From: an uncultured Porphyromonadaceae bacterium
GTDB taxonomy: Bacteria; Bacteroidota; Bacteroidia; Bacteroidales; Muribaculaceae
Reading direction: 5' to 3'
DNA: 39,198 bases
Assembly (NCBI GenBank): GCA_947176755.1
Contig: CAMWRW010000012.1
Span: 1 to 39,198 of the forward strand
In this document: positions 3,526-26,032 of the stretch, one piece after another
Layout: the number at the start of each line of letters is the position of its first letter
Numbering within the stretch: the first letter of the stretch is position 1
Notes under the pieces: generated by a model
The model's database searches: none
Seen by the model: the letters and a program-made list of their open reading frames with translations, nothing else
What the model was told of the DNA's origin: nothing
Program-made: the position numbers and the translations under genes

Positions 3526-4173
3526 GTGGAACAAAAGATAAATTGGCCGGAGACACTGTTTGTGACCGGCATCGACACCGACGCCGGGAAAAGCTATGCC
3601 ACCGGCTGGCTCGCACGGCAGATGGCTGCCGACGGCCATAACGTCATTACCCAGAAATTCATCCAGACCGGCAACACCGACTTCAGCGAAGATATCGCCG
3701 TCCATCGTCGTCTGATGGAGATAGAGCCCGTGGCCGCCGACCGACTCGGCATCACGGCCCCCGTAATTTTCACCTATCCGGCCTCGCCGTTGCTCGCCTC
3801 CCGAATCGACGACAAACCTCTGCGGCTTGAAATCATCGACGAAGCCACACGCGTTCTGCTCTCCTCCTACGACAATGTCATAGTGGAAGGGGCCGGAGGT
3901 CTGATGGTGCCCCTATTTGAAGAATATTTCACACTCGACTACATACGCGACCGCGAGCTCCCCGCCGTGCTCGTCACAAACGGGCGTCTCGGCTCCGTCA
4001 GCCACACGCTGCTCTCGCTAGAAGCAATGCGCTCCGCCGGAATAAAACTTTTCGCCGTGGTCTACAACCCCTACTACGACAGTGACACCGTGATCAGCAA
4101 GGATACGCGCGAATATCTCCGCCGACAGACCGCCCGACTTTTCCCGAACGCACTTTACCTTGAAATGGACTGA
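3526..4173 (+). CDS. bioD: Dethiobiotin synthetase
   Basis: BioD closes the ureido ring of biotin: it carboxylates 7,8-diaminopelargonate with CO2 and ATP to give dethiobiotin, the penultimate step of biotin synthesis. The 215-residue protein starts with GTG and has the P-loop GIDTDAGKS near residues 16-24 (GTDTxxGKT in the family), then KFIQTG, and later the conserved VEGAGGLMVPL. The fold is that of a P-loop amidoligase and the length is normal. No shorter start is likely because the P-loop begins so early. It is monocistronic or paired with the exonuclease that starts 1 base after its stop. The other biotin genes lie about 20 kb downstream. Confidence 0.93.
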   Translation: MEQKINWPETLFVTGIDTDAGKSYATGWLARQMAADGHNVITQKFIQTGNTDFSEDIAVHRRLMEIEPVAADRLGITAPVIFTYPASPLLASRIDDKPLRLEIIDEATRVLLSSYDNVIVEGAGGLMVPLFEEYFTLDYIRDRELPAVLVTNGRLGSVSHTLLSLEAMRSAGIKLFAVVYNPYYDSDTVISKDTREYLRRQTARLFPNALYLEMD

Positions 4174-4174
4174 C

Positions 4175-4897
4175 ATGGCAAGGACAAGAAAGAAAAACGT
4201 AAAGCAGAAAGCGGAGAGTCCGGAGGCGCCGGCAGTTACCGAAGAACAAATAAAAGAACAGGAGACAATTCCTGTTGAACCCATCTTCGGAGTTTCCATC
4301 CCCAAAGAGGATATGGCCGCACTTCCGGCCGCCCCCTTCCGGGGAGAAATCACGCTCGTAGACCATCCCGAGCAAGTCGCCGAGGCCGTCACAGTGCTCC
4401 GCAGAGCCGAGATGATAGGATTCGACACAGAGACGCGCCCGAGTTTCAAGCGCGGACAGCTGTTCAATGTCGCATTGCTTCAGCTATCCGCCGGCAACAG
4501 ATGCTTCCTCATCCGCCTCAACAAGATAGGGATGCCCGACCCGATCCGGGAGATACTTGAAGACCCCTCCATAATCAAGATAGGACTGTCGACCCACGAT
4601 GATTTCCGCAACCTACACAAGCTCTATCAATTAGAGCCGGCCGGATTCATCGAGCTCCAGGACTATGTCAAACAATTCAAGATAGCCGACAACAGCCTGA
4701 CGCGCATTCATTCCATACTCTTCGGCCAGAGAATATCAAAAGGACAACGACTCACAAACTGGGAAGCCGACACGCTCACCATCCATCAGCAGGAATATGC
4801 AGCGCTCGACGCCACGGCATGCGTGGAAATCTACCGCCGACTGCAGTCAGGAGTTTTTGAGCCGGAAAGCTCCCCCTATTGGCGACAAATCAACTGA
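4175..4897 (+). CDS. 3'-5' exonuclease, RNase D-like (DEDDy)
   Basis: A DEDD-superfamily 3'-5' exonuclease domain fills residues about 45-240. Exo I is seen as GFDTETRP (Asp and Glu metal ligands), Exo II as STHDDFRNL, and Exo III as EYAALDATAC with the Tyr-x3-Asp of the DEDDy subgroup. All four acidic residues and the tyrosine are present. The first 40 residues are basic then acidic and look disordered. There is no HRDC domain, so it is shorter than RNase D and resembles the stand-alone Bacteroidota proteins. I chose ATG 4175 (MARTRKK); a start at 4160 would overlap bioD by 14 bases. Substrate (RNA or DNA) cannot be told. Confidence 0.88.
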   Translation: MARTRKKNVKQKAESPEAPAVTEEQIKEQETIPVEPIFGVSIPKEDMAALPAAPFRGEITLVDHPEQVAEAVTVLRRAEMIGFDTETRPSFKRGQLFNVALLQLSAGNRCFLIRLNKIGMPDPIREILEDPSIIKIGLSTHDDFRNLHKLYQLEPAGFIELQDYVKQFKIADNSLTRIHSILFGQRISKGQRLTNWEADTLTIHQQEYAALDATACVEIYRRLQSGVFEPESSPYWRQIN

Positions 4898-4997
4898 ACC
4901 AAACGCAAACTGGTGCAATAATGTGCATTTCTTTGAGAATAAGCTACAAATAATATAATTTAACTTTTTTTAACAGACGAATAGCGGGAATTTGCTC

Positions 4998-5005
4998 TAT
5001 CTTTG
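4998..5005 (+). promoter_or_regulatory. Probable promoter and leader of the fimbrial operon
   Basis: TATCTTTG matches TAnnTTTG. Transcription would start near 5010, leaving a leader of about 145 bases before the DUF3575 start at 5154. The leader holds one small hairpin (5108-5113 with 5119-5124, loop GAGCA). The region 4898-5153 otherwise contains an AT-rich tract (4950-4975) upstream of the box and no gene. I see no flanking inverted repeats of the kind used for invertible promoters. Confidence 0.6.
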
Positions 5006-5153
5006 CAAAACGTTTAGGCCCTACCAATTACCCTGAACGAACTAACTTGACCTGAAAAGTAAGCCTTAAATTCAACGCAGACTTACCGAAAGAGCAACAC
5101 CAAGGAAGCGGCTGAGCAAGCCGCGGAAAACCTTACAAATCATACCTGAGAGA

Positions 5154-5747
5154 ATGAAACTCTACAAGAAGGCAATAACGGGGCTGGCCCTTGCAGCCGC
5201 GTCATGGAGCGCCGACGCAACGGCGGCCGACATCGCGGTAAAGACCAACCTGCTCTACGATGCGACAGCATCCGTCAACCTCGGATTCGAGTTTGGTGTA
5301 GGACAACAGTGGAGCATCGACATCAACGGCGACGTTAATTTCTGGAATATCGACGACAAGCGCTGGCGCCACTGGTTTGCCCAGCCGGAGCTCCGTTACT
5401 GGTTTTGCCATCGTTCAATCGGCCATTTCATGGCTCTTCAGCTACACGGCGGACAGTACAACATCGGCAACCTCGGTTGCGACGGCTTCAAATTTTTAGG
5501 GACAGATTTCCGCACGCTCAAAGACCAGCGTTGTCAAGGCTGGTTTGCCGGAGCCGGCATCGCCTACGGATATTCCGTGGCCTTCTCGGCGCACTGGGGC
5601 ATGGAGTTCGAGGTCGGTCTCGGATGGGCCTATTCGCGTTACGACAGTTATCCCTGTGCCGAATGCGGCAAGAAGCAAAAGAGCAACGCCGTCCACAATT
5701 ATGTCGGGCCGACGAAACTCGCCGTAAACCTCGTCTATAACTTCTAA
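5154..5747 (+). CDS. DUF3575 family protein, fimbrial operon
   Basis: A 197-residue exported protein with a signal peptide (about residues 1-24, cut near ADATA-AD). It has the DUF3575 look: an early IAVKTNLLYDATAS, then NLGFEFG, WSIDINGDVNFW, and alternating aromatic strands ending in VNLVYNF, as in small outer-membrane beta barrels. DUF3575 proteins commonly head type V fimbrial operons of Bacteroidales, but their exact job is unknown. It is the first gene of the operon and lies 15 bases before the DUF3868 gene. Four cysteines (CDG, RCQ, PCAEC) are in loop-like positions. Confidence 0.82.
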   Translation: MKLYKKAITGLALAAASWSADATAADIAVKTNLLYDATASVNLGFEFGVGQQWSIDINGDVNFWNIDDKRWRHWFAQPELRYWFCHRSIGHFMALQLHGGQYNIGNLGCDGFKFLGTDFRTLKDQRCQGWFAGAGIAYGYSVAFSAHWGMEFEVGLGWAYSRYDSYPCAECGKKQKSNAVHNYVGPTKLAVNLVYNF

Positions 5748-5762
5748 ACAGGGCCACACGAC

Positions 5763-7193
5763 ATGAAAAAGCAAGCAATCAAAGCAACCGCATTTCTTCT
5801 CCTCCTGTCGGCGACGGCCACTGCAGCCGACATCCGTCCTGTGATTTCCGCCATGGACATGGCCCGCAGCGACAACGAGGAACAAGCGCTATACGTCAGC
5901 TATACTGTTGACCTCCCCGCGATGAGCGTGCCGACCAACACGGAAGTGATACTGACTCCGGTGGTCAGGTTTGGCGGCGACTCCATCGAGCTGCAGCCGG
6001 TGATCCTTGCCGGACGCTCGGCCTATCTCGCCCATCAGCGCAACCATAATCTCCCCGTCGGAACGGACATCGTCAGGGCAAAAGGAGAAGCCCTGACGCG
6101 CACGGCCAAACTCGCGTGGCGTCCCGAAATGAAACAGTCGGTGCTGACCTTCCGCGCCGAAACAATCGGCTGCCGATGCAAAGAGGAGGGAGCCGGTTCA
6201 CTGCCCGATATGCTGGCAATGGACTTCACGCCCAAGATGTTCGACCTCATCATACCGTCGGCACAGTTGACGGCCATGGAACAAAAAGTCGACGAGATCG
6301 TAAAGACCCGGTCGCTCTCCAAGAAGGCCTACGTCAACTTCAAGGTTAACTCCACGACACTTCTCCCCGATTACAAGACGAACCCTCGCGAGCTAAAAGC
6401 CATCATGGCCACGATCGACTCCGTTCGTTCAGACAAGGATCTGTCAGTGGAGACCGTGCTCATCCACGGTTATGCATCTCCCGAAGGCAGCTACGAGAAC
6501 AACCGCCGGCTGGCAGAGGGACGTACGAATTCACTCAAGAATTACGTTGATAAGAACTACGGATTCGGAACGAAGCTCCATACAGCCTCCACAGCCGAAG
6601 ACTGGACAGGGCTCAAGGAATGGGTGACAGCATCGAATCTACCCAACCGTCAGGGCCTGCTGGAGATAATCGACTCCAACCTGCAGCCCGATGCCAAGGA
6701 TGCACAGATGAAAGCGAAATATCCCACGGAATACGCGACATTGCTTGCACAGGCATATCCGACACTGCGACGCACCGACTATCGGATCGACTATGTGGTA
6801 AAAACCTTTACCGATCCGAAGACCATAGCGGTTTTGATCGAGACAGCTCCCGACAAGCTCTCGGCAGAGGAGGTGATTCTTCTGGCACGCAGCTACGACG
6901 AAGGGTCGACGGAAAGGATTTCCACGATGGACAAGGCGGCCGACCTCTTCCCTGACAATCAAGTGGCTCAGCTTTACGGAGCGTTCCTCGCCCTTGAGAA
7001 TAAAGACCTCGCCCGGGCAGAGAAACTGCTGAACCGCGGCGGCACATCACCCGTGGCAGACTATGCACGAGGCGTTCTTCTCCACTACAAAGGAGAGAAT
7101 GCCGAAGCCCTCCCCTATCTGAAGAAGGCATCAGCAGCCGGAATCGAGGGAGCGAAAGAGGCTCAGGACGTAGTAGAAAGTCATCTGCGATAA
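5763..7193 (+). CDS. DUF3868 and OmpA-like domain protein, fimbrial operon
   Basis: A 476-residue exported protein. After a signal peptide (about 1-22) comes a DUF3868 beta-rich domain (about 25-150). An OmpA-like region follows (about 185-270) with VNFKVNSTTLLPDY and HGYASPEGSYENNRRLAEGR, which matches the peptidoglycan-binding OmpA motif (usually GHTD, here GYASPEG). The C-terminal third is helical and repetitive and may be TPR-like. DUF3868-OmpA proteins occur beside DUF3575 in Bacteroidales fimbrial loci and may tie the fimbrial base to the cell wall; this is inferred. There is a 15-base gap from the DUF3575 gene, and the major fimbrillin starts 114 bases later. Confidence 0.82.
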   Translation: MKKQAIKATAFLLLLSATATAADIRPVISAMDMARSDNEEQALYVSYTVDLPAMSVPTNTEVILTPVVRFGGDSIELQPVILAGRSAYLAHQRNHNLPVGTDIVRAKGEALTRTAKLAWRPEMKQSVLTFRAETIGCRCKEEGAGSLPDMLAMDFTPKMFDLIIPSAQLTAMEQKVDEIVKTRSLSKKAYVNFKVNSTTLLPDYKTNPRELKAIMATIDSVRSDKDLSVETVLIHGYASPEGSYENNRRLAEGRTNSLKNYVDKNYGFGTKLHTASTAEDWTGLKEWVTASNLPNRQGLLEIIDSNLQPDAKDAQMKAKYPTEYATLLAQAYPTLRRTDYRIDYVVKTFTDPKTIAVLIETAPDKLSAEEVILLARSYDEGSTERISTMDKAADLFPDNQVAQLYGAFLALENKDLARAEKLLNRGGTSPVADYARGVLLHYKGENAEALPYLKKASAAGIEGAKEAQDVVESHLR

Positions 7194-7307: not shown

Positions 7308-8783
7308 ATGAAAAAATTTCAGTTTGCAGCGGGCTTCGCAGCCCTCGCGATGCTGGCATCATGTTCCAGCGACGCACCTGATTTCAATGGCAGCACCGAA
7401 GAAGGGGATGGACATTCCTTCATCGCAATGCGAATCACCACTCCCGCAACTCGTGCCGATGAGGCGGTAGCATCCAAAGATGACGACTCCGAGATCAACG
7501 ACATCACGCTCTACATCGTTGACAAACAGGGTAACAACTACACGACCCTCCGTCGTCTCTACACCGAGAACATTGAAAACGGCTACGCTTACTTCAATGT
7601 AACCTCTTACGTGTTCGATGACCTCGCAAAATTCGTTTCCCATCAGGATGAAGGCAACACAGAGCTCGGCAAAAAAGTGATGCTTAAGGTTTATGCCAAT
7701 ACTTCCCGCATGAGCGCATTCGCTAATGAAGGAATGTATGTAACCGGCCGTACGACAGATGATGGTGAGGACACTTGGAAAGCAGGCGACTTCTGTATGT
7801 CGAACAACACTGAGACCACAGCATTCCTCTCCCCCGCAGGTGTCGGCAAGGATGGTACGACAAAACAGAATGCATGGGTGATCAACGGCGGCGGCGCCAA
7901 CAACCAGGCTGTTGTGACTCTCGACCGTCTTGCAACCCGTTTCGACCTCAAGTTCGGCGACGGCAAGACTGACGGTGTTTACACTGCAGAAGATATCGAC
8001 AACATGACTATCACGATGCAGGGTGTAGCCATCAACACGCATGAGACCAATGCTTACTGGTTCCTCCAGAATGGTGATGCAACTCCCAATCGTGCTCATA
8101 CATGTTCTCCCAAGCTTCAGTTCAACAACGGCAACTCAGAGCTGACGCCTTCGGACTACACTCATGTATATGACCTCGTGCTTCCGACATCTTCCACTGC
8201 AAAGAGCACCACATACGCACACCCTCATACTCTTGCATCCAGCTTCTACGCAGACGGTAAGTATGACATCGGCTTCAAGAATGCCTCTTACGCAGCAATC
8301 CGTTGCACGTTCTCTCACCCCACTATGGGCAACGCCACTGAAGTATTTACGCACAATGGCTACTACCTCGGAACCTTCGATCAGTTCAAAGCGGGCACTC
8401 TGCAGGACCTCTATGATAACTATCCCGAGACTGAACAGGCTTGGATTGCTGAGACTCAGGCTTCCACAACTCTGACTGCACAAACTCTTGCCCAGGCAGC
8501 CACGAGATTCACAAGAAGCAGTGGCACTGCCCCCTTCTATTGCTACTACTCGGTTGTTCTCCGTAACGATGGAAATGACAGCAAAGACACCCGTACGCTT
8601 GAGAACGTGAAGATGATGCGCAACACTTGCTACAGCATCTCTGTAGACAAGATCAAAAAGATCGGCTTCACCGGCACTGACGTTCCTCATGACGAAGTTG
8701 AGGACTCCATGCTCTGGATCGACCTCAACATTCAGGTTGCTCCCTGGATCAGCAACACCGCCAACGAAGACATTGTCCTCTAA
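7308..8783 (+). CDS. Major fimbrillin, Mfa1/FimA-like lipoprotein
   Basis: Structural subunit of a type V pilus. The 491-residue precursor has a lipoprotein signal with LASC (Cys19). Residues 48-50 read TRA, and Arg49-Ala50 is the same kind of site at which Mfa1 and FimA of Porphyromonas gingivalis are cut by Arg-specific protease before donor-strand polymerisation. The mature part is beta-rich, with the fimbrillin-like strand DEINDITLYIVDKQGN-type segment near residue 62 and a C-terminal LNIQVAPWISN, the usual end of Mfa1-like subunits. It is third in the operon; a hairpin follows. Position, size and the anchor gene directly downstream support the role of main shaft subunit. Confidence 0.85.
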   Translation: MKKFQFAAGFAALAMLASCSSDAPDFNGSTEEGDGHSFIAMRITTPATRADEAVASKDDDSEINDITLYIVDKQGNNYTTLRRLYTENIENGYAYFNVTSYVFDDLAKFVSHQDEGNTELGKKVMLKVYANTSRMSAFANEGMYVTGRTTDDGEDTWKAGDFCMSNNTETTAFLSPAGVGKDGTTKQNAWVINGGGANNQAVVTLDRLATRFDLKFGDGKTDGVYTAEDIDNMTITMQGVAINTHETNAYWFLQNGDATPNRAHTCSPKLQFNNGNSELTPSDYTHVYDLVLPTSSTAKSTTYAHPHTLASSFYADGKYDIGFKNASYAAIRCTFSHPTMGNATEVFTHNGYYLGTFDQFKAGTLQDLYDNYPETEQAWIAETQASTTLTAQTLAQAATRFTRSSGTAPFYCYYSVVLRNDGNDSKDTRTLENVKMMRNTCYSISVDKIKKIGFTGTDVPHDEVEDSMLWIDLNIQVAPWISNTANEDIVL

Positions 8784-8820
8784 AATGAGAAATGCGGCCT
8801 GAGGGCCGACAGAAACCTCT

Positions 8821-8848
8821 CTGCAGGGAGGGTGAAACCTCCCTGCAG
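8821..8848 (+). terminator. Strong hairpin after the major fimbrillin, no U-run
   Basis: A perfect 11-bp stem (8821-8831 with 8838-8848) with a six-base loop lies between the fimbrillin stop and the anchor gene start at 8881. It is followed by AACCAAAACC rather than a T-run. It is therefore better read as a partial terminator or a 3'-end stabiliser that could keep the shaft subunit more abundant than the downstream minor subunits. Confidence 0.6.
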
Positions 8849-8880
8849 AACCAAAACCTACAGAAATTGATTTCATACCT

Positions 8881-9864
8881 ATGAAACTCAAATCCATAAT
8901 ACTACCATCACTTGCGCTCGCGGCCGCCATGACATCGTGCGATGCGGTCTACGAAGATCTCAATCCCTGTCCTCAGGGTGCGGACTTCGTGCTGCAGTTC
9001 ACACACAATATGACCGGCGAGGATCGATTCTCCGCTGACGTGCATTGCCCTGTGCTTTTCCTTTATGACAGCGAAGGAAATTTTGTCGACAGATATAATT
9101 TTGATACTGACGGGAAACTCTCCCTTGAACTTGAAGAGGGGGATTATCACGCAATCAGTTTCGGAGGTATGGACTGCCCGGAAGCTGACTTCGTTTTCAA
9201 TCAGGATTTCCTGACAAGTCATCATTACTCTGAGCTGGAGACCTACATACGAGGCACACGCGGCGGAGAGAGCTCGAAGCGACTTCATGCGCAGCATCAT
9301 GCGATGGAGGATTTCACAGTCATCGCGACCCCCGAGGGCCACACGAAGGTGATTCTTGATTTCATCCGCAACACGAATCTGATAAAGGCGGAACTCGCCT
9401 ATTCCGACGGAAGCGCGATTTCACCTTCCACCTTCAATTACACCATCACGGCCGACAACGCCGCGACAGACCATGCGAACAAGGTCGTTGCCTCCGGCGA
9501 ACATACCGTTTACCGTCCCCACGATACGGGAACCGACCCGCAGGGGATGACCATCGACGGAGCGAATGTTCCGACGGCGTGGGCGGAAATGACCATCGGC
9601 CGCCTTGAAGAGGATATGACGGCCACGCTTCTCGTGACCCGCGCAGCCACCGGGGAGCAAGTCGCAAAAATCGATCTCGTGAAATATTTCGAGAAAATCA
9701 TGGGGAACGAACTCAGCGGAGTGACGCTCCAGGAATATCTCGACCGCCAGGCGCAATGGACGATCTCGTTCACGCTCGACCCGGAAACGGAGAAACTCGC
9801 CGGGTTGCAATTCAAGATTAACGGTTGGATTCTCAACTTAGCCAACGAAGGAACCATACTCTAA
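8881..9864 (+). CDS. Mfa2/FimB-family fimbrial anchor lipoprotein
   Basis: A 327-residue lipoprotein with lipobox MTSC (Cys20), then DAVYEDLNPCPQG, a stretch typical of the FimB/Mfa2 family, which anchors the pilus to the outer membrane and limits its length. The C-terminus (FKINGWILNLANEG) keeps the W-aliphatic strand of the family. Unlike the four other subunits it has no Thr/Lys-Arg-Ala site shortly after the lipobox, as expected for an anchor that is not matured by protease. It starts 97 bases after the major fimbrillin and is followed by the next subunit after 19 bases. Confidence 0.85.
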   Translation: MKLKSIILPSLALAAAMTSCDAVYEDLNPCPQGADFVLQFTHNMTGEDRFSADVHCPVLFLYDSEGNFVDRYNFDTDGKLSLELEEGDYHAISFGGMDCPEADFVFNQDFLTSHHYSELETYIRGTRGGESSKRLHAQHHAMEDFTVIATPEGHTKVILDFIRNTNLIKAELAYSDGSAISPSTFNYTITADNAATDHANKVVASGEHTVYRPHDTGTDPQGMTIDGANVPTAWAEMTIGRLEEDMTATLLVTRAATGEQVAKIDLVKYFEKIMGNELSGVTLQEYLDRQAQWTISFTLDPETEKLAGLQFKINGWILNLANEGTIL

Positions 9865-9883: not shown

Positions 9884-11341
9884 ATGAACTACAAAACAAT
9901 CATAAGGCCAATCGGAATGGCGTTAGCGACAACGCTTCTCGTCGGATGTGAGAGCGACAACAGTATAGTGAACCCGACGCCCGACAATGGCCGCGAGATA
10001 TGGATGACGGTAACCGTCAGGAACGCATCCGTTGGCACACGCGCCGACGGCAATGTTCCCGATTGGGATTCACGCGTGACCTCGGCGATCGGATATATCA
10101 CGGAGAAAGGGAAAAGGAATGTGATCGCATACGGCCGACCCTTCAAAATGCCGGCGGAGGGAGTGACCGACGCTGATATCACATACGAAGGGACGACCAC
10201 GAAAATAATGCTTGCCGTCTCCGGTGACCTTGAAGTGGGAAAGGAATATGACCTGTACTTAGCAGCAAACATACCGGCAGCCGACCAGCAGAGCATCATA
10301 GATTCGCGATACAGCCAGACGGGCGTTCAAATCGCAACGCTGACCTTCTCGCATCCCTCCTCAACGTGGTCAAACTGGGCCGCAGCCTCGTTCGAGACAG
10401 CCCACACGATGCCGATGGGATGTGTAGAGCCTATAGTGATAGAGCTTGAGGATACTGACTACAGTCGCGAGAATCCCTATCATGCAGGCGGAGAAGGGGC
10501 AACCCGGCAATCGTTTACGATGACGCGCGGACTTGCACGTGTTGACTTCCGAGATGACTCTCCGGCAGATACGGGAGTGAACGAATATGTGATCGAGAAC
10601 CATTCCGGAGCGTTGAAAGTGCAGTTCAAGAGATGCCAACCCATCAACCTGAACTCCTCCTCCTATTTCGTGCCGACCTATCAGGCCGTCACCCCGGCCA
10701 ACACGATCGTGACGTGTCCTCCGACACAGTCGCGATACCCGGCGAGCATGATAACGCTCCCCACGTCAAAACCGGCAAACAACGGCTTCATCCAACTCTG
10801 CTATCTTCCGGAGAATGTGCCCGCTGTCGACAGAGTCTCCTACCAGACGGCAACCGGCTTTATCTTCACCGGCATCCTCAAGGGAGTCGAAGGGGTTTGC
10901 GACGAAGAACTCATAGCATATCTCGACGGGAGCAAGACCGTGAACGGCGCACACCCGACGCTCTACTATTATGACGACGGAAGATTCCAGTCAATGCCGA
11001 TGTATCGGGCCGTGGCGCCTACGGGGAGCAACTGGCGATCGATCACCTGGAGCGAGACACTCGGCGGCTATGCCGTGAGCTATCGGAAGGCTATCCGCCA
11101 CGGCGGCTATGCCGGCCAGACACCGGCGCCGGTAGCCGACGACGGAGTGGTATCGGAGATGGAATATGGCGTGGTCAGAAACCATAACTACGAGCTTTCC
11201 ATCGGAAAAGTTACCGCCCTGCCCCACCCCGCGGGCAATACCGACATACCGGAAACGAACAAAGAGGACATCGATCTCAAGATCACAGTCGACACGAATT
11301 GGGAATACCACCGTGGCACGACTGAAATCGAAATCAACTAA
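9884..11341 (+). CDS. Minor fimbrial subunit, Mfa-like lipoprotein
   Basis: A 485-residue lipoprotein (lipobox LVGC, Cys22) with a beta-rich fimbrillin-type body. It carries GTRADGN at residues 51-57, so Arg53-Ala54 is a likely protease maturation site. The C-terminal part (EYGVVRNHNYELSIGKV, then DLKITVDTNWEYH) resembles the last strands of FimA/Mfa-family subunits. Placed between the anchor and the two large adhesin-like subunits, it may be a tip adaptor comparable in place to Mfa3 or FimC; the exact equivalent cannot be assigned. It is 19 bases after the anchor gene, and the next gene starts 19 bases after its stop. Confidence 0.75.
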   Translation: MNYKTIIRPIGMALATTLLVGCESDNSIVNPTPDNGREIWMTVTVRNASVGTRADGNVPDWDSRVTSAIGYITEKGKRNVIAYGRPFKMPAEGVTDADITYEGTTTKIMLAVSGDLEVGKEYDLYLAANIPAADQQSIIDSRYSQTGVQIATLTFSHPSSTWSNWAAASFETAHTMPMGCVEPIVIELEDTDYSRENPYHAGGEGATRQSFTMTRGLARVDFRDDSPADTGVNEYVIENHSGALKVQFKRCQPINLNSSSYFVPTYQAVTPANTIVTCPPTQSRYPASMITLPTSKPANNGFIQLCYLPENVPAVDRVSYQTATGFIFTGILKGVEGVCDEELIAYLDGSKTVNGAHPTLYYYDDGRFQSMPMYRAVAPTGSNWRSITWSETLGGYAVSYRKAIRHGGYAGQTPAPVADDGVVSEMEYGVVRNHNYELSIGKVTALPHPAGNTDIPETNKEDIDLKITVDTNWEYHRGTTEIEIN

Positions 11342-11360: not shown

Positions 11361-13952
11361 ATGACACGGAAACTATTATACCTGACTCTCACACTCTTTA
11401 CGCTGTTATTGCCGGCAGCCTGCTCCACCGACGAACCGTTCCGTCAGGGAGAGGGAGAGACGATGCTCAATATTCTGATTCCCTCCACGGAACTCGCACG
11501 CGAGAACACTCGCGCCGGAGGGCTCTATGATGATGAACACGGCACACGCCTCGTAAGCGAGGGAATGATCAAGAAACTGCGCGTAGCGGGATTCTATGAG
11601 GAAGAGGGAACGAATGTGACGAAACATTTCTATGCCGAACTCGACCCGAATCATGCAACGGCGGTCAATGATATCTACCTGAATTATTCGATGTCGGTTG
11701 TGCCGGGCGATTACAGACTCTATATCTTCGCCAACATGGAGCTGAACCCGACAACAAAGAGCAAGCTTCAGGCGGAGGCTACAGCCGCCGATCTTGAGGA
11801 GGAAGTTCAGGCGATCAGCCACTCCTACGTGACCAATTCAAAGGTCACTCTTCCTACAGCCGAGGAGGGTCTCCCTATGGCAAATAAGAACGCGCTGTCA
11901 GTCACGGTTGCCAAAGGGGAACGCCAGACCCTTGAAGCTAAACTCGGATTTCTCTGCTCAAAGGTGAGAGTGAGCGTGATTTACGACAAGGCCTTCGGAG
12001 AAAACGAGAAATTCAAAATCAATTCAATGGACGCACTGAATGTGTGGACCGGCACGCGAGTTTTCGCGGGATTGTATGAGAACGCCGCCAACGGCACGGG
12101 GACCTCGAAAAACACTCTGACTGGCGTCGGCAAAGGAAATCACTACGCTCTCGGAGAGCTCGCATCGATGACTCTTGAGGAACTCGCTGCGATCACCGAC
12201 GAGAACGAAGATCCACTGAACAAACTCGGGACGGTACTCAACGACCCGACCGGATACACACAGAGCGTGTGGCAATCGACAGTTTATCTTCCCGAGTGCA
12301 ACGGCAAGACGGAAGAGGAACGCACGACACTCAGAATAAATCCCGATGGCGTCGGCTCCTTCACATTTATCCCGGGATGTTTTGTCGACGGGTCCGGCAA
12401 TGAATTCAAGATGGAGCGAGGTCATTTCTACGATATCATCGCGAAAGTTGCGGAAGGGGGCGAAGTTCAGTATTCATGGACCGTGAACGGATGGGATCCC
12501 TTCCGACTGACCGTCCAGCTCGCCGGCACGACCGAACTATCGCTCTCGATGACCCGCATCACGGAGGAAATCGACGGTATGAATCCGGCCACGATCTACT
12601 ACAACAGCAACGCACCTCGTCTTGAGTTCGACATTGACAAGGATGAAAACGGCGTGGATTATTTCATTATCACCGAAGACAAGGCTTCGAAGACAATCAC
12701 CGTGCGAGTGAATCCGGAAATCGGTATTCACGCCAATCTGATCACAGGAAAGACATTCCGGGTTATCGCCGGAAACATCAACAAACAGGTTGTTGTCGAC
12801 GCGATCAACATGAAGGCTTACCTTCATATATACCCGGATTCGCAGTCACTTAACCTGAAAGATATTGCCAACTCGAATTCATTCAGCTTCTATCTGGATT
12901 ATTCGACGAATGTCGACGGACTTGCGCTCAAGATAAGCCAGATAACGAATTCCAATACCAACAAACAATACACGACGTCCGGCGGCAACGTGACGGGAGG
13001 AGCCTACCTTGAGGTGGTATCCAACGACACGACGACAGTGCTCTCCGAAAAGATCGCGTTATTGGCGAACACAAACATCGGCGATAAGATGAAGACAGGG
13101 GTAACACTTCCGAAGAGCGGACTCCTGCGCATCACGGTAGTCGATCCGACGTCGGCCACATTCTTCGCATCCCAGATAGCGGGAAAAATCGTCGGCACAG
13201 CCGACGGAGGCTATACCGACGACGGTTCGTTCACGATCGTACCTAATCCGACGAAGTATGTGATTCATTTCAAGGCTGTGAGAAACAGTAACGGCGATAT
13301 CGACACCGGATGGCAGAACGACCAGGGAGCCGTTCCCCACATCTATATTTACCAGCCGCTTTATTACAAGGGTTATCCGGTCTACGGACAATCCGGAAGC
13401 GACAAAATCAACTGGATTGAATATTCCTTCACGGGGAATTACGCCTTCAAAGGATGGTACAGCGGCGGAGGCGATGTTGATGACCTGATGATTGACACGA
13501 GCACATTCCAGGATAAAACCGGATCGGACATCACAGGCTATAACGTCGAAAGCACTTGGGGCGACCCGGGAACACCCTCAGGCGTGACCGATAACATGAG
13601 ATACCAGAAGATCAATCTTTTGGGCAGCTTCAGAGGCACATGCTCGACATGTCATCCGAATACCGGGGAATCGAATCAGTCTGCGTTGTGGCCGGGAGTC
13701 GGAATGCTGAAGGAGACGGGCGACAACGCAGGATGGTACAAAATCGAACTTCCCCTTTTGGCGAAGCCGGGCTCGGCGATGGTGATGTTCACCAACAATC
13801 ATTCCGGCAGCTACCGCTATCCGCTGGCTGCGATGCCGGGTATCCCATTGCCGAACTATGCAGACTGCGAGGCATGGTATCTGCTTGACACGAGCATCGG
13901 AGGCGACAACTGCTATTTCACCGATGACCGACACGACTCATACGCTGATTAA
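11361..13952 (+). CDS. Large fimbrial subunit with a C-terminal glycan-binding-like module
   Basis: I chose ATG 11361 (863 residues) because it opens directly into a lipoprotein signal ending PAAC (Cys21). The longer frame would overlap the previous gene by over 170 bases. ENTRAGG puts a maturation site at Arg51-Ala52. Residues about 30-440 are fimbrillin-like and end TVNGWDPFRLTVQ. About 440-630 look like Ig-like strands. The C-terminal part (about 630-863) has HIYIYQPLYY, then WPGVGM at 777-782, GWYKIELP, and AMVMFTNN. The order WPG-x-M, a W-Y strand and an IF-N-N strand resembles starch-binding module CBM26. Probable tip or near-tip adhesin; ligand unknown. Confidence 0.7.
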   Translation: MTRKLLYLTLTLFTLLLPAACSTDEPFRQGEGETMLNILIPSTELARENTRAGGLYDDEHGTRLVSEGMIKKLRVAGFYEEEGTNVTKHFYAELDPNHATAVNDIYLNYSMSVVPGDYRLYIFANMELNPTTKSKLQAEATAADLEEEVQAISHSYVTNSKVTLPTAEEGLPMANKNALSVTVAKGERQTLEAKLGFLCSKVRVSVIYDKAFGENEKFKINSMDALNVWTGTRVFAGLYENAANGTGTSKNTLTGVGKGNHYALGELASMTLEELAAITDENEDPLNKLGTVLNDPTGYTQSVWQSTVYLPECNGKTEEERTTLRINPDGVGSFTFIPGCFVDGSGNEFKMERGHFYDIIAKVAEGGEVQYSWTVNGWDPFRLTVQLAGTTELSLSMTRITEEIDGMNPATIYYNSNAPRLEFDIDKDENGVDYFIITEDKASKTITVRVNPEIGIHANLITGKTFRVIAGNINKQVVVDAINMKAYLHIYPDSQSLNLKDIANSNSFSFYLDYSTNVDGLALKISQITNSNTNKQYTTSGGNVTGGAYLEVVSNDTTTVLSEKIALLANTNIGDKMKTGVTLPKSGLLRITVVDPTSATFFASQIAGKIVGTADGGYTDDGSFTIVPNPTKYVIHFKAVRNSNGDIDTGWQNDQGAVPHIYIYQPLYYKGYPVYGQSGSDKINWIEYSFTGNYAFKGWYSGGGDVDDLMIDTSTFQDKTGSDITGYNVESTWGDPGTPSGVTDNMRYQKINLLGSFRGTCSTCHPNTGESNQSALWPGVGMLKETGDNAGWYKIELPLLAKPGSAMVMFTNNHSGSYRYPLAAMPGIPLPNYADCEAWYLLDTSIGGDNCYFTDDRHDSYAD

Positions 13953-13987
13953 TCACAAACGAACAGAAACCAACAACACAGACGATA

Positions 13988-16900
13988 ATGTCAAGATATA
14001 AATCATATCTACCGACCCTCCTCACCCTCCTGTCGATATTGACGGGAGGCCTTCTCACGGGATGCTCCGACGATTTCAACTGGCGGGGAGAAAACGTGGC
14101 CGAGGATGAATATCTGATAGCTTTCTCGACCTCCTCACCCATCGTGGAGAGCATCACTAAGACACGCGCGACCGACCAGGAAAGAAACAAGGTAAAGGAA
14201 GTGGCACTGGTGATGTTCAACGGGGACATGAATGTCGGAGAGCCACAATATTTCACACTGTCTTCCACACCGGCGATCACGCCTGAAGGGGATGGCATAG
14301 GAGGCTCGATAAAGGTGAAAAAATCGAGTGTCCGCGAAGGCGACGGCGGGGATTGGTACTTGATTGCCAATGCCAACTCGCTTGTCAAGCAGTTTATGGA
14401 TAATCATGCAGGCGACACATTTGACACGCAGACCTTTCTTGACGGTATCAGCGCGTCGAAGAATCAGCTTGCGGATAGCGGTGATGAACCGTTCATAATG
14501 GCAGCCTCGAAAGCGGCCGTTAATATAAGAGAGGCACAGACGACGGCACCCGTTTTCAATTTCGACCGGTTGTTCACCCGCATTTCCGTCTTGAACTACA
14601 CGACGGAAGGGAAATTCCTCATGACGGGAACAATTCTCGACAAATATGCCGCAACGGGAACCGCATCTCTGAGCGGAGCAAATGCGCTCACTGCAAATGA
14701 TCTCAGGGCAGCAAGCGATTCCTGGCAGAGGACTCCCGCCACCCAGACCACAGACGGAATCACGCATACAAAGGCGGGAGCGACGGGCGACCAGCTTACG
14801 ATGGCTTCATTCCCCTACAGCGTTCCGACGGACGCAGAGGGAAATGTTTCGACAGACGCTTCAAAGATAATGTATCTCGTTATCGAGGGATATTTTGATC
14901 AGGCAACCCAGGAGGATATCGACAACGGCATTCTCCACAAATTCGATTCCGGCAGACCATGCTATTATGCAGTGGCGCTACCCAACCTTGAGGCGAACCA
15001 TCTATACAGGGTGATAATCGAAAAGGTTCCGGGCGAAGGGCATGCGACTGCGGAAGAAGCAATAGCGAATCCGGGCGGTCTGTCGATTGACTTTATCGAC
15101 ACAACGGACAGAATCCGCGACATCATATCCGACGGCAAGAATGTGCTTGCAGTCTGCGACACGGTGAGAATCGAGGCCGTGCCTGAAACGGGAAACATCA
15201 TCACCAGAAATCTGCCGATAAAAGCACGCCACGAGGGAAAAGGCAATCCTACGGTAACGCTGACAAGGGTCAGCGGCGGAGAAGGCTGGCTCACGCTCCC
15301 GTCGCAGGCGGCATACACGTTCGAGACTATCACTAATGAAGAAGAGACAAGCAACGGACTCTTCACATCCGCGATCTCAATCGAGGCAAAGGCCAGCATG
15401 AATGAAGGCTCGGAACGCGAGGCGGTGTACAAAGTCAAACTTGAAGGGACGGAGCTTGAACGCAACGTCGTGTTCCTTCAGGCGGCCAACACCAACGTGA
15501 AGTATAGCAAGGCGATGGACATCAAACTTACTATCAAACGCGGCTCGACGAATGACCTGACACAGATCGACTATCTACGGTTTATCAATCCGGACATCAC
15601 CACGGCGACGTCCGGAACGGAAGCTCTCGGCGTAAAACCCTATCAGAACGGAGGACGAATCCGCAACCTCGGTCTCCATGCACCGATGCCTAACGGCGGA
15701 AACGTGACCTACACCTATACGATCACACTCCTTGACGGAGCGACGATAGAAGAGAACGGCGTAACCGGGACGAAAAGCGGCAACACGTATACCTACACGT
15801 TTACAGACGGCACGGATTACGGCTATCGCGTGACTCCGGATGCGATCACCATCAAGCAGGGAACGACTACCTACACACTTGACGTCTATCATACAGGCTT
15901 CTTCTACCATCACACACGCGACGGATTCATCAACTGGCACTATTATGAAGTGTTTACCCAGAATTCGAATCTCCACTGGCTTGACCGAAATCTTGAAGCC
16001 ACGAGTGCGGGTATGGGTGTTAGAACCAACAAGACGACGACCCTGACATCGGAGAGCTGGCCCATTGTAGGAACGGAAGCAATGGGACAATTATACCTGA
16101 AATCAGAAGCGGATGCTCAGATGATACCGGGCTGGAATCTGCCGACCTACGCCCAGATGCGCTCACTGACAGTGCTCGCCGGGTTCACTACCCAGCGCCT
16201 CTCGACCGTACCGGCCCAGACACCCTATTACGCACCCTCCTATCTCTTCGCGGGAACGGAAGGAACGAAAAACATCTCCGTTCATTCCTACTTCCCACAG
16301 AACATGCTTCAGGAAGTCAGCGGAGGCACTCGCTCCTACGCGGGCGACAAATCGTCGGGCTATTATATGACGAGAACTTCGGCCGACGCAATCGGCTGGT
16401 ATCAGTGTATGCAGTTTACGGGCATGAACGTGACCTCGCTCAACCGCAATGTGGGCACAGCATTCGCGATGTCTGTCAGACCCTGCACGGGGACCTATAA
16501 TCCGGAAGTGGAGGATGAAAAATACACGGTAAGCGTGAAGGGATACACGCATGTGTTCCTCTACTATCTGAACACTGACGGATCGAAGACCTATCTGACC
16601 TCATGGCCGGGCGAACAAGTTGCGGTTTATGGCGACACGGAACGTTACCATCCGTTTGAAATCACTCCGACGATGGCTTACAATAAGGAGCGACTCTACG
16701 TTATTTTCAACGAGGTTCAGAATGGCGTCGTCAGGAATTCCAATGTAGATGCAGCGAAAGTCAACAGCCGCACCGGTATCAAGTTTATCAACGGCGGATT
16801 ATATGATAAGGATGCTACGACCACAGCGACCGGAGCGAAAGAAGGAAACTGGACGACTCCACCCGAGCGTCCCTATCTCGTCGTCCGCGCTCTAACGAGC

Positions 16901-18184
16901 GAGATCGGAACGAGAAACCACTGCTACGTATGGACAGGCGACGGAGATAACCTATACTTTGGCGTATATGGCTCTTCAGCAGCCAGCGCAGGAACAAAGA
17001 ACGGCTATCGCTACTGGAAGGTTGCCGTAAGCGGCACAATTGCCACACCGACCGGAGTTATCTTTAAAGATAATAACACAAACAATGACGGCAAGCTGGA
17101 AATTACAGATCCCTCAAAGATCATAAAAGAGACAGATCCCGAACTTTTGGCAGAATATGGAGCAACCGTGCTTATCACGGTTACAACCGACGGCCAGTCG
17201 ACAAGTAATTACACCTATAACTTGCACGGCCAGTTCACAAGTTCAGACTGGACGGACATCAATCTGGTGAAGAATGCATCCACAGGCCTGTTTGAAGCAA
17301 AAGTCAATGTCACTTATAGCGGTGGCTGCTCCTTCGGTATCCAGAGAAGTGACAACGCCTGGATCTGGCTTAAATCAGGAGAAACGCTCCAGACGAATGG
17401 AACGGCGATGAATTGCGCGGTCCAGAGCGGAAACAACGGAACGAACTGGAGCGGACTTGGAAGCGGAACATACGACTTCGTGTTCGACGAAACCGCGATG
17501 ACACTGAAGATCACAGGCGCCGGAGGTGGCGGCGGCGGTGGTGGCGATGACAAGAAATATCTTGTGATCCGCGTTCCGAACGGAGAAGTCTCACAGAATT
17601 ATATCCATGTATGGGGTGCAAAGGATTATACCACATACAGTTCGGCACCGAGTTGTGAGTCCACGACATTGAACGGATATAAATACTGGAAGATAGAGGT
17701 GACGGATGCCGTTACTTCGCTAAACGGAATTATCTTCAAGAACGCTGCATCCGGAGATGACGGTAAAGATCAATATGGCGACAGCAAATATTGGCATCGA
17801 GTAACCGACGCGACAGTTCTTGCACAATTCGGAGCAACCTCCATGTTCACGTTTGATCTCTACTGTTACGAATTCCATGGAGAATGCTTCGGCAACGGCA
17901 GCTGGGAAACTAAAACCGCCGACTGTGACGGCAACGTATGGACGTTAAGCAACATTGGTATCGTTTCCGGTGACTTCGGAATTAGAAAGAAGAGACATTC
18001 CGATGGCGGTCAAGAAAAATGGATTCAGCCTAAGTACTCGAGCGATGCTGAAGTTGTTCTAAGTACGGATATAGTATGTGCATACGAAGGTGAGTCTTCA
18101 GGAAATAACTTTGAAATGAAAATTTCCGGAACTTATACATTTAAATTTGATCCTGTAGCAATGACGCTTAGAGTAACAAGATAA
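13988..18184 (+). CDS. Giant multi-module fimbrial tip adhesin
   Basis: A 1398-residue lipoprotein (LTGC, Cys26) with KTRATDQ, so Arg60-Ala61 is a likely maturation site. The N-terminal third is fimbrillin-like. Residues about 655-835 resemble the FISUMP/lectin-like fold: WLDRNLEAT at 664, PGWNLPTYAQM, a GYYMTR strand, and a closing SVRPC at 829-833. Residues about 845-955 look like CBM26 (SWPGEQ at about 872, LYVIFNE). Two tandem copies of an approximately 215-residue unit follow (962-1177 and 1190-1398), joined by eight glycines. Each has a YVW/HVW...YWK...IFK half and an HGxF...W...FGI half like SusE/SusF-type starch-binding domains. It is last in the operon, so probably the tip. The functions are inferred from pattern only. 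Confidence 0.72.
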   Translation: MSRYKSYLPTLLTLLSILTGGLLTGCSDDFNWRGENVAEDEYLIAFSTSSPIVESITKTRATDQERNKVKEVALVMFNGDMNVGEPQYFTLSSTPAITPEGDGIGGSIKVKKSSVREGDGGDWYLIANANSLVKQFMDNHAGDTFDTQTFLDGISASKNQLADSGDEPFIMAASKAAVNIREAQTTAPVFNFDRLFTRISVLNYTTEGKFLMTGTILDKYAATGTASLSGANALTANDLRAASDSWQRTPATQTTDGITHTKAGATGDQLTMASFPYSVPTDAEGNVSTDASKIMYLVIEGYFDQATQEDIDNGILHKFDSGRPCYYAVALPNLEANHLYRVIIEKVPGEGHATAEEAIANPGGLSIDFIDTTDRIRDIISDGKNVLAVCDTVRIEAVPETGNIITRNLPIKARHEGKGNPTVTLTRVSGGEGWLTLPSQAAYTFETITNEEETSNGLFTSAISIEAKASMNEGSEREAVYKVKLEGTELERNVVFLQAANTNVKYSKAMDIKLTIKRGSTNDLTQIDYLRFINPDITTATSGTEALGVKPYQNGGRIRNLGLHAPMPNGGNVTYTYTITLLDGATIEENGVTGTKSGNTYTYTFTDGTDYGYRVTPDAITIKQGTTTYTLDVYHTGFFYHHTRDGFINWHYYEVFTQNSNLHWLDRNLEATSAGMGVRTNKTTTLTSESWPIVGTEAMGQLYLKSEADAQMIPGWNLPTYAQMRSLTVLAGFTTQRLSTVPAQTPYYAPSYLFAGTEGTKNISVHSYFPQNMLQEVSGGTRSYAGDKSSGYYMTRTSADAIGWYQCMQFTGMNVTSLNRNVGTAFAMSVRPCTGTYNPEVEDEKYTVSVKGYTHVFLYYLNTDGSKTYLTSWPGEQVAVYGDTERYHPFEITPTMAYNKERLYVIFNEVQNGVVRNSNVDAAKVNSRTGIKFINGGLYDKDATTTATGAKEGNWTTPPERPYLVVRALTSEIGTRNHCYVWTGDGDNLYFGVYGSSAASAGTKNGYRYWKVAVSGTIATPTGVIFKDNNTNNDGKLEITDPSKIIKETDPELLAEYGATVLITVTTDGQSTSNYTYNLHGQFTSSDWTDINLVKNASTGLFEAKVNVTYSGGCSFGIQRSDNAWIWLKSGETLQTNGTAMNCAVQSGNNGTNWSGLGSGTYDFVFDETAMTLKITGAGGGGGGGGDDKKYLVIRVPNGEVSQNYIHVWGAKDYTTYSSAPSCESTTLNGYKYWKIEVTDAVTSLNGIIFKNAASGDDGKDQYGDSKYWHRVTDATVLAQFGATSMFTFDLYCYEFHGECFGNGSWETKTADCDGNVWTLSNIGIVSGDFGIRKKRHSDGGQEKWIQPKYSSDAEVVLSTDIVCAYEGESSGNNFEMKISGTYTFKFDPVAMTLRVTR
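16871..18181 (+). repeat. Tandem protein repeat joined by an octaglycine linker
   Basis: Copy A is 16871-17518 and copy B 17555-18181. Shared order of motifs: YLVVR/YLVIR, YVW/HVW, GYRYWK/GYKYWK, GVIFK/GIIFK, DGK, LAEYGAT/LAQFGAT, NLHGQF/EFHGEC, FGI, then YDFVFDETAMTLKIT/YTFKFDPVAMTLRVT. The linker 17522-17545 encodes eight glycines. DNA identity between the copies is low, so the duplication is old and kept by selection at the protein level. Confidence 0.85.
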
Positions 18185-23559: not shown

Positions 23560-23610
23560 GGGTCATCGCTAACCATGAGAGAAACCGAACAAGGAAAGGG
23601 GACTGATACT

Positions 23611-24876
23611 ATGGAGAATGAGAATTTCGACCGATTTGACCGGGAGCATCTATGGCATCCCTACACATCGACCGACAATCCACTGCCGACCTACAAAGTG
23701 AGGGAGGCGCGGGGGGCGGTCATCACGCTTGCCGACGGAACGGAGCTGATCGACGGGATGTCGTCGTGGTGGTGTGTGATCCACGGCTATAACCATCCGG
23801 TGCTTAACGAGGCGATCAGACGCCAGACAGAGCGGATGAGCCATGTAATGTTCGGGGGTCTGACCCATGAGCCGGCAATAGAACTCGGCAAGCTGCTTCT
23901 GGAAATTCTTCCTCCGGGAATGAACCATATCTTTTACGCCGACTCGGGGTCAGTGGCGACGGAAGTTGCGATGAAGATGGCCGTGCAGGCACAGAACGAT
24001 GCCGCGCGGACGAATTTCGCAACTATCCGGAGCGGTTATCACGGCGACACATGGAATGCGATGTCGGTGTGCGACCCGGTGACGGGGATGCACGGGGCCT
24101 TCGGGCCGGCACTCCCGATCCGCTATTTCGCCCCCGCACCCTCCTGCGGCTTCCACGACGAATGGGACCCGGCAGATTTCGAGCCTATGCGCCGTCTGCT
24201 CGAAGAGCATGCCGGGAAACTGGCGGGAGTTATTCTGGAACCTGTCGTGCAGGGCGCCGGAGGAATGCGCTTCTATCATCCGCAATATCTGAGGGAGTTG
24301 CGTAAGGAATGCGACCGACACGGCATATTGCTGATTTTCGACGAGATAGCGACTGGCTTCGGTCGAACCGGCAAACTTTTCGCATGGGAACACGCCGGTG
24401 TCGAACCGGACATCATGCTGATCGGAAAGGCACTGACCGGAGGCTTTATGACCTTTTCGGCCGTGGCGACCACTCGGGCCGTGGCCGACCGGATATCGGC
24501 GTCGGAGTCGGGCGTGATGATGCACGGACCGACATTCATGGGGAATCCGCTGGCGTGCGCCACGGCTCTGGCCTCGACGCGACTTTTGCTTGAATCCCCC
24601 TGGCAGCAGCGAATTGCCGAAATCGAGGCAATCATGCGCGAGGAACTCGGGAAAGCTGAGGGTCGCCCCGGAGTGAGAGACGTCCGCGTTTTAGGGGGCA
24701 TCGGCGTGATCGAACTTGAAGAGCCTGTCGAGCTCGGAGAGTTCCAAAAGAAATGCGTCGCCAACGGCGTGTGGATACGTCCCTTCGGCCACAATGCCTA
24801 CATCATGCCTCCCTACCTTGCTGTGAGCGACGAGCAGGTAAGGAAACTATGCCGCTTCCTTGTGGCAAATGTCTGA
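23611..24876 (+). CDS. bioA: Adenosylmethionine-8-amino-7-oxononanoate aminotransferase
   Basis: BioA uses S-adenosylmethionine as amino donor to turn KAPA into 7,8-diaminopelargonate, two steps before biotin. Family hallmarks: [11 protein letters not shown] at the start, [15 protein letters not shown], the GYHGDTW segment, [12 protein letters not shown], and the PLP-lysine in IGKALTGG near residue 273. I chose ATG 23611 (421 residues), since [15 protein letters not shown] matches the usual length and a purine-rich GGAAAGGGG precedes it; ATG 23575 in the same frame would add 12 residues. It follows priA closely and overlaps the start of bioF. Confidence 0.94.
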
Positions 24877-26032
24877 ACCCGAAATAATGAACGCAGAAAA
24901 CGACCTTAGAATCGACGGCTTCTCGGCCGTGCTCGATGATTACGAGCGCGAGGGGCGACTCCGTCATCTTCCTCCCCATCGCGCCGGACAGGGGCTTATC
25001 GATCTGACCGGGAACGATTATCTCGGTTTGGCGGCCCGTCAGGAAGAGTTCCGCGAGGAATATGCCCGACGCTTCGGGGAAGCTTCTATGACCTCATCCG
25101 CCTCCCGACTTCTGGCCACCGATCAGAAAATATACGCCGATTATGAGGGGTTGCTCGAGGGGCTTTACGGACGCCCTGCCCTACTCTTCAATTCAGGCTA
25201 TCATGCCAACATGGGCATCACCCGCGCTCTCGCTCTTCCCGGCACGGTTTTCCTCAGCGACAAATTAATCCACGCTTCGGCAATCGACGGGCTGCGCATG
25301 AAGGGGACGGAATGCGACCGCTGGCGACATAATGACCCCGGACACCTTCGCAAACTGCTTGAGAAATACGCCGGCAAGGCAGAGAGAATGGTGGTGATAG
25401 CAGAAAGCGTCTACAGCATGGACGGCGATTTGGCACCGTTGGAGGAGCTCGCTGCCCTGCGTGAAGAGTTTCCGAATATGCTCCTCTACATAGATGAAGC
25501 CCATGGCTTCGGAGTGTTCGGCAAGTATGGACTCGGGTTGGCTGAAGAACGGGGACTCCTCGGCAAAATCGATATACTGATGGCCACGCTCGGCAAGGCG
25601 GGGGCCTCGGCGGGAGCGTTCGCCGTCACGTCGCGCCGAATGAAAGACTACCTCGTGAACGCGGCGCGACCGCTTATCTTCTCGACGGCATTGCCTCCGG
25701 CGAACGTGGCCTGGAGCCACCTGATGACAGAGAAGATAACGGGGATGGAAAAGGAAAGGAGACATTTGCGGGAGCTCGCCTCGCGGCTAAGAGCCGGGCT
25801 CCGCGACGCCGGAGGAGGGTCGGAAATTTCGGGGAGTCAGATTGTGCCCTTCATCACGGGGGATGCGAGAAAGGCCACCCGACTAGCGGCGAAACTTGAA
25901 GCGGAGGGAATCTTAGCCTCAGCGATCCGTCGCCCGACCGTGCCTCCGGGGGGCGAACGACTGCGCCTATCGCTGAACGCGCTTCTGTCGGAGATCGATA
26001 TTGACAATATAACCGAGAAACTGAAAGAATGA
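24869..26032 (+). CDS. bioF: 8-amino-7-oxononanoate synthase (KAPA synthase)
   Basis: BioF condenses pimeloyl-ACP (or -CoA) with L-alanine to make KAPA in a PLP-dependent decarboxylation. Visible family features: [20 protein letters not shown], the [10 protein letters not shown] tract, [12 protein letters not shown] with the cofactor-binding Asp, and TLGKAGAS holding the PLP lysine (about residue 243). The ATG at 24869 overlaps the end of bioA by eight bases; starts at 24860 and 24887 are in the same frame. Its stop overlaps the next start (ATGA at 26029). KAPA synthase fits better than a KBL or serine palmitoyltransferase given BioA and BioG-BioC beside it. Confidence 0.93.

Follow-up and report, generated by a model that had tools for sequence, protein, structure and literature searches.

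Candidate tip subunits of a type V pilus in an uncultured Muribaculaceae bacterium probably carry starch-binding modules

The window analyzed here is a 39,198-base stretch, contig 12 of the 97 contigs (2.27 Mb in all) in the genome of an uncultured Porphyromonadaceae bacterium (Muribaculaceae in GTDB; assembly GCA_947176755.1, contig CAMWRW010000012.1; the genome is called G000 below). It holds a pilus operon whose genes all run in one direction and specify, in order, a DUF3575 protein, an OmpA/DUF3868-like protein, a stalk candidate of the Mfa1 family, an Mfa2 anchor, a Fimbrillin_C minor pilin and two large proteins, here called TIP1 and TIP2. The genes of the last two together fill positions 11361-18184 and share the operon with stalk and anchor genes, as in type V pili. 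Gene order and C-terminal domains suggest that TIP1 and TIP2 are located at the pilus tip. Their parts are the following (window coordinates).

11361..13952, + strand: TIP1 (863 residues), a two-domain pilin with immunoglobulin (Ig)-like domains and a CBM26-like end
11442..12512, + strand: TIP1 residues 28-384, pilin fold in the predicted model
11511..11513, + strand: TIP1 Arg51, putative protease maturation site (TR/A), invariant in 16 aligned sequences (set A1)
12528..13244, + strand: TIP1 residues 390-628, two Ig-like β-sandwiches by fold match
13254..13832, + strand: TIP1 residues 632-824, CBM26 core (YVIHFK, W651, HIYIY, WPG, GWYKI, MVMF), from Pfam CBM26, alignment to the CBM26 modules of G000 and conservation
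13356..13676, + strand: insertion in the TIP1 CBM26, about residues 666-772, with EYSF, GW and CxxC, from conservation in 60 TIP1 sequences
13988..18184, + strand: TIP2 (1398 residues), with a pilin-like start, FISUMP-like and CBM26-like domains and an X-Y-X-Y end
14024..15067, + strand: TIP2 residues 13-360, FimD-tip-adhesin-like (NCBIfam NF052322, 44.5 bits, cut-off 170)
15875..16495, + strand: TIP2 residues 630-836, FISUMP / tip-lectin-like domain
16511..16864, + strand: TIP2 residues 842-959, degenerate CBM26 (HVFLYY, WPG, VIFN)
16868..17191, + strand: X1 module, residues 961-1068, CBM26-like (phmmer to X2, E 4.2e-13 in a small set; hhalign)
17198..17521, + strand: Y1 module, residues 1071-1178, SusE/SusF X25-like
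17549..17857, + strand: X2 module, residues 1188-1290, CBM26-like
17858..18184, + strand: Y2 module, residues 1291-1398 plus stop, SusE/SusF X25-like

The original prediction for this DNA had described two large reading frames with fimbrillin-like N-termini at the end of a pilus operon, and this description holds: the two genes are co-directional (the mechanical open reading frame, ORF, of TIP1 begins further upstream, at 11166), the N-terminus of TIP1 matches P_gingi_FimA with 33.2 bits and adopts a two-domain pilin fold in the predicted model, and TIP2 has the FimD-type match listed above. Lipoprotein signals are recognizable by eye in both (PAAC21 in TIP1, LTGC26 in TIP2), as is an arginine at the putative processing site (conserved as R51 in 16/16 sequences of A1 and as R60 in at least 90% of the 20 TIP2 sequences of set A2). 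The two segments of TIP1 that follow the pilin domains, 390-485 and 486-628, match folds of Ig, T-cell receptor, cadherin, S-layer, adhesin and phage-tail types, among others.

A CBM26-like module had been proposed for each protein, and this is supported. The order Y-x-[YFW] ... WPGxx[MLV] ... IF is present in both (WPGVGM in TIP1, WPGEQV in TIP2) and in 0/2000 shuffles of each, for a pattern composed after the proteins had been seen. The Pfam score of TIP1 is borderline, since CBM26 reached 28.1 bits in a search of its own genome, over the cut-off of 28.1, and 25.2 bits (residues 771-815) with hmmscan. Among TIP1 proteins more widely, CBM26 is found at E<=0.01 in 15/16 members of A1 (window copy counted) and above the curated cut-off in eight of ten further TIP1 proteins, all ten stretches falling within the TIP1 core; one of the relatives, from genome G309, reaches 33.4 bits. 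What the original prediction missed is that the TIP1 module is interrupted by a conserved insertion, in which Y688, G698, W699 and C764 are found in 60/60 sequences and C761 in 59/60. (The CxxC, at 13641-13652, is perhaps a disulfide or a metal site.) An hhalign comparison of A1 with CBM26 (86%) was set aside because the alignment covers an extra C-terminal module of some relatives and not the TIP1 core.

The aromatic residues that would form a binding platform are conserved in both proteins. Among 60 TIP1 sequences (1 from the window, 15 of the P and 44 of the L series), H660 and Y664 are present in all, Y662 in 56 (F in 4) and W777 in 55 (Y in 2, F in 2, G in 1). The TIP2 set of 64 (1, 19 and 44, identical sequences dropped from both sets and P0001, the window's own protein, left out of the alignments) has 62 members with letters at the positions in question, with Y859 in 61, W873 in 58 (F in 4), P874 in 62 and G875 in 62. 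This conservation fits a binding platform that has been kept, with the residues likely to stack on sugar assigned by analogy with Y60 and W72 of Sas20d1, as given in part of PMC9112005.

TIP2 is more composite. Its FISUMP-like middle, also anticipated, resembles the structure 4EPS; the Pfam listing of the window protein does not include FISUMP (PF09603), which is found at E<=0.01 in 7/20 members of A2 and exceeds the cut-off in two loci, L041 and L043. The segment 842-959 is termed CBM26-like only, because its Pfam scores (15.1 bits with hmmscan, 21.8 bits in the own-genome search) do not reach 28.1; TIP2 alone gives CBM26 at E 0.026 and PUD at E 0.0041, both under cut-off. The halves described originally as SusE/SusF-like are real as predicted folds: the end of TIP2 consists of two X-Y repeats, the X profile aligns to the CBM26 profile (hhalign 93%), and in the predicted model (mean predicted local distance difference test score, pLDDT, 80) the end has the X25 β-sandwich fold of SusE/SusF. 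A Foldseek search of this model against 350,542 chains placed SusF at rank 1, Sca5 X25-2 at rank 2 and SusE at rank 9, and starch-binding or amylase-type entries take 20 of the top 22 rows of the VIA list.

PDB sequence searches with whole TIP1 or TIP2 or with their alignments returned no starch module, their matches being RpoD (E 0.33), P-selectin (0.31), the pilin 4GPV (0.0037), one other entry (1.6), antibodies and TIA1; a search with a CBM26 protein of G000 likewise returned no starch module. Searching G000 with TIP2 961-1398 gave a self-match only at E<=1. In a small set of our own, phmmer connected Y2 with a 591-residue G000 protein of L039 at 21.9 bits, E 3.5e-6 at the size of this set; this link is a lead only, because the own-genome search with 961-1398 did not list the protein. 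The 591-residue protein (L039:5529-9593) has Y-like modules and adjoins a CBM26-bearing α-amylase; its start reads as CBM26-like by eye, and Pfam gave AMPK1_CBM alone (E 0.0085).

G000 has 18 CBM26 matches. The family here belongs to a starch toolkit, being present on amylases of GH13, on one GH31 enzyme and on a triple-CBM26 protein (with a lipobox by eye) that adjoins a SusD-family gene and a GH13. Two relatives have the tip genes themselves in line with genes for starch use. Genome G273 has, on one strand, a SusC-type TonB receptor, SusD, a triple-CBM26 protein, GH13, an Mfa2 anchor, a gene in the place of the minor pilin, TIP1, TIP2 and GH97; the gene in the minor-pilin place is devoid of Pfam matches and no recognized stalk gene is in line. 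G309 has, again on one strand, anchor, minor-place gene, TIP1, TIP2, GH97, a triple-CBM26 protein and a GH13 with CBM26. GH97 as the next co-directional gene was seen twice in 50 loci against 0.033 expected (P 0.0005, a post hoc test, with G309 counted once in the expectation). Between G273 and G309, TIP2 (L056/L096) is 49% identical vs 93.7% for GH97, which suggests that tips may evolve fast. Three other neighboring genes were set aside: a pullulanase adjoining TIP2 in L044 (opposite strand, a single case), a 'pull' label in L055 (a 26% identity match) and a GH13 in L104 (separated from TIP2 by two genes).

A TIP1 625-863 query matched 14/297 family genomes at 1e-10, G000 included, in 5/30 genera; where relatives are named they are mostly Muribaculaceae bacterium, with Bacteroides sp. 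and Porphyromonadaceae bacterium also represented. The 45 TIP1 genes lie in 43 distinct loci (L062, which is L040, and L097, which has the same 16 kb as L096, were left out), and a same-strand TIP2 comes next in 43/45. The exceptions are L063, at a contig edge, and L061, in which an ORF that reads like the start of TIP2 runs to the contig end. The order holds in 23/25 cases in loci found via TIP1 and in 20/20 in loci found via TIP2 (L096-L115, which contain TIP2 by choice). An anchor is labeled in 30/43 stretches, and a stalk gene precedes the pair in the window and in six further loci so labeled (L040, L041, L053, L064, L065, L113). The ends beyond the TIP1 and TIP2 cores vary, with X and Y modules found on both proteins among relatives, which makes module exchange look likely. 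In L050, two TIP2-matching ORFs have unrelated genes between them, as if split by an insertion; L054 and L057 have up to five unlabeled ORFs before TIP1, in part pilin-like lipoproteins by eye.

These findings are probably best read as a type V pilus whose tip subunits bind α-glucan, that is, starch or glycogen. By the general rule for type V pili, TIP1 and TIP2 would be made as outer-membrane lipoproteins, cleaved after the conserved arginine and joined to the pilus by strand exchange; in part of PMC12632263, a clostripain at the cell surface is described as processing the pilins, which then assemble by way of the groove that is freed. G000 has two Peptidase_C11 matches. Judging from family, fold and conservation, the CBM26/CBM25-like and SusE/SusF X25-like modules would hold α-1,4-glucan chains, from starch granules or from glycogen, on stacked aromatic residues. 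The pilus would keep its cell close to starch, and degradation would fall to the Sus proteins and CBM26-bearing amylases of the genome. The link between adhesion and nutrient capture that had been proposed is supported in this form, and the same two domain types, CBM26 and SusF_SusE, were selected in a starch phage-display screen of a gut metagenome, according to a passage of PMC10076258. A further-reaching proposal, which we regard as possible but doubtful, is that type V pili have been recruited to starch use as dedicated devices: in some species, within the Sus operon, a short one (anchor and tips, no recognized stalk) docking granules at SusCD, elsewhere a long one fishing for granules, with the interrupted TIP1 module as a new CBM26 subfamily on pili.

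Several observations weigh against starch binding by the tips. Pfam scores of the TIP1 and TIP2 modules of the window are mostly under cut-off; the TIP2 core aligns weakly to the CBM26 profile (hhalign 8.7%); a profile of the CBM26 modules of G000 finds 7/60 TIP1 and 15/64 TIP2 proteins (i-E<=0.01), the window copies not being among those found; the Y profile matches only Sca5 (7RPY) among PDB sequences, at a weak E of 2.1; and a protein search with only TIP2 961-1398 as query, which covered proteins 0.55-1.75 times as long, had no match at 1e-3. TIP1 632-863 is modeled at low confidence and is not covered by the structure-match rows examined, and no starch domain is among the best 50 rows for TIP1 in either structure-match listing. 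The window neighbors examined (biotin genes, PriA and others) include no starch genes. GH97 within 10 kb (2/50 loci, 0.60 expected, P 0.12) is not unusual, and the Sus-linked cases of G273 and G309 are probably one event, because their GH97 proteins are 93.7% identical.

If the modules were lectins for other glycans, such as mucin O-glycans or bacterial surface polysaccharide, the CBM26 and X25 folds would have been reused, and the FISUMP domain or the variable ends would set the target. According to part of PMC12632263, the glycans that type V tips are believed to bind may be of bacterial, dietary or host origin; 4EPS, the fimbrial tip protein that the FISUMP domain resembles, has been reported to be targeted by diversity-generating retroelements (in part of PMC8143477); and the ends differ among relatives. 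To these can be added the P-selectin match on TIP2 1070-1152 (E 0.31), β-galactosidase matches to X (E 0.16) and Lcl_C in 3/20 TIP2 proteins (best E 4.7e-4). Neither the P-selectin nor the β-galactosidase match is significant, however, α-glucan modules lead the matches by fold and by family, and the near-invariance of the CBM26 aromatics fits a fixed ligand; we therefore judge lectins of this kind rather unlikely. Of the two ligands offered by the original prediction, the evidence points to the starch-like one, and a mucin adhesin is not supported, the three matches that might speak for it being weak.

TIP1 and TIP2 might instead be lipoproteins that bind starch at the cell surface within a Sus-like complex and not parts of a polymer, as the lipoboxes of both and the G273 copy (anchor, TIP1 and TIP2 without recognized stalk, and the Pfam-negative gene in the minor-pilin place) would allow. 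That the stalk gene precedes the tips in the window and the six other loci, and that TIP1 has a whole predicted pilin fold with the conserved arginine, makes this unlikely. Most improbable of all is that the modules are structural spacers, Ig-like β-sandwiches that lengthen the tip and bind nothing.

The remaining genes of the operon are these.

5154..5747, + strand: DUF3575 outer-membrane protein, first gene of the operon (Pfam DUF3575, 221 bits), kept upstream in several related loci
5763..7193, + strand: OmpA/DUF3868-like protein (Pfam OmpA 23.9 and DUF3868 18.4 bits, both under cut-off)
7308..8783, + strand: stalk pilin candidate, Mfa1 family (Fimbrillin_C 49.9 bits; NCBIfam Mfa1 family 115.3 bits, cut-off 130)
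8881..9864, + strand: anchor pilin, Mfa2 family (PF08842, 121.7 bits), the sole Mfa2 match detected in G000
9884..11341, + strand: minor pilin, Fimbrillin_C (PF15495, 27.0 bits, equal to the cut-off)

A 13-pair stem at 8819-8850, between stalk and anchor genes, may act as an attenuator in favor of the stalk, although the scan scored it for the opposite strand. A phase-variable promoter was considered and dismissed, inverted repeats of at least 10 bases being absent from 4880-5200. The operon sits, with other genes, inside what seems to be a split biotin gene set, between a gene that we take to be bioD-like (3526-4173) and presumed bioA, bioF and BioG-methyltransferase (BioC-type) fusion genes (23575-27396), the names being assumed from Pfam class and gene order, and BioG from Pfam.

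With the type V pili of Bacteroidales, exemplified by FimA and Mfa1 of P. gingivalis, this system has in common the pilin fold, lipobox, conserved arginine and a single operon for stalk, anchor and accessory genes; it differs from them in tip candidates that end in starch-type modules. P. gingivalis Mfa5, in contrast, carries a von Willebrand factor domain (noted in part of PMC7835359), and TIP2, compared with BACOVA_04982 (4EPS), a fimbrial tip of B. ovatus, is extended by a CBM26-like module and four more. Amy13K of E. rectale and Sas6 of R. bromii have CBM26 modules with the same Y/W strand, WPG and IF strand, but these lack a pilin as carrier and the conserved CxxC insertion of TIP1. B. 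theta SusE and SusF and the X25 modules of R. bromii Sca5 (11-17% identity) belong to surface starch-binding proteins and a scaffoldin, not to pilins. The R. bromii amylosome (Sas20, Sca5) likewise has non-catalytic starch adherence by CBM26-like and X25 modules (in part of PMC9112005), but is a cohesin-dockerin complex and not a pilus.

Tip pilins with C-terminal ligand domains are a known kind, and the ligands of type V pili of gut Bacteroidales are termed very little known (both in passages of PMC12632263); their role in Bacteroides colonization is called mostly unknown in part of PMC8551831. Among open-licence PMC literature, we found no paper linking type V pili to starch binding, and as far as that search goes, what looks new is the presence of starch modules, the interruption of CBM26 and the linkage to Sus genes. 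For type V pili of the gut, a ligand class can be read from the sequence, together with the residues with which to test it. Adhesion would be tied to the use of dietary starch in gut bacteria, and the question of what such pili hold would have a testable answer: the pilus may catch food starch.
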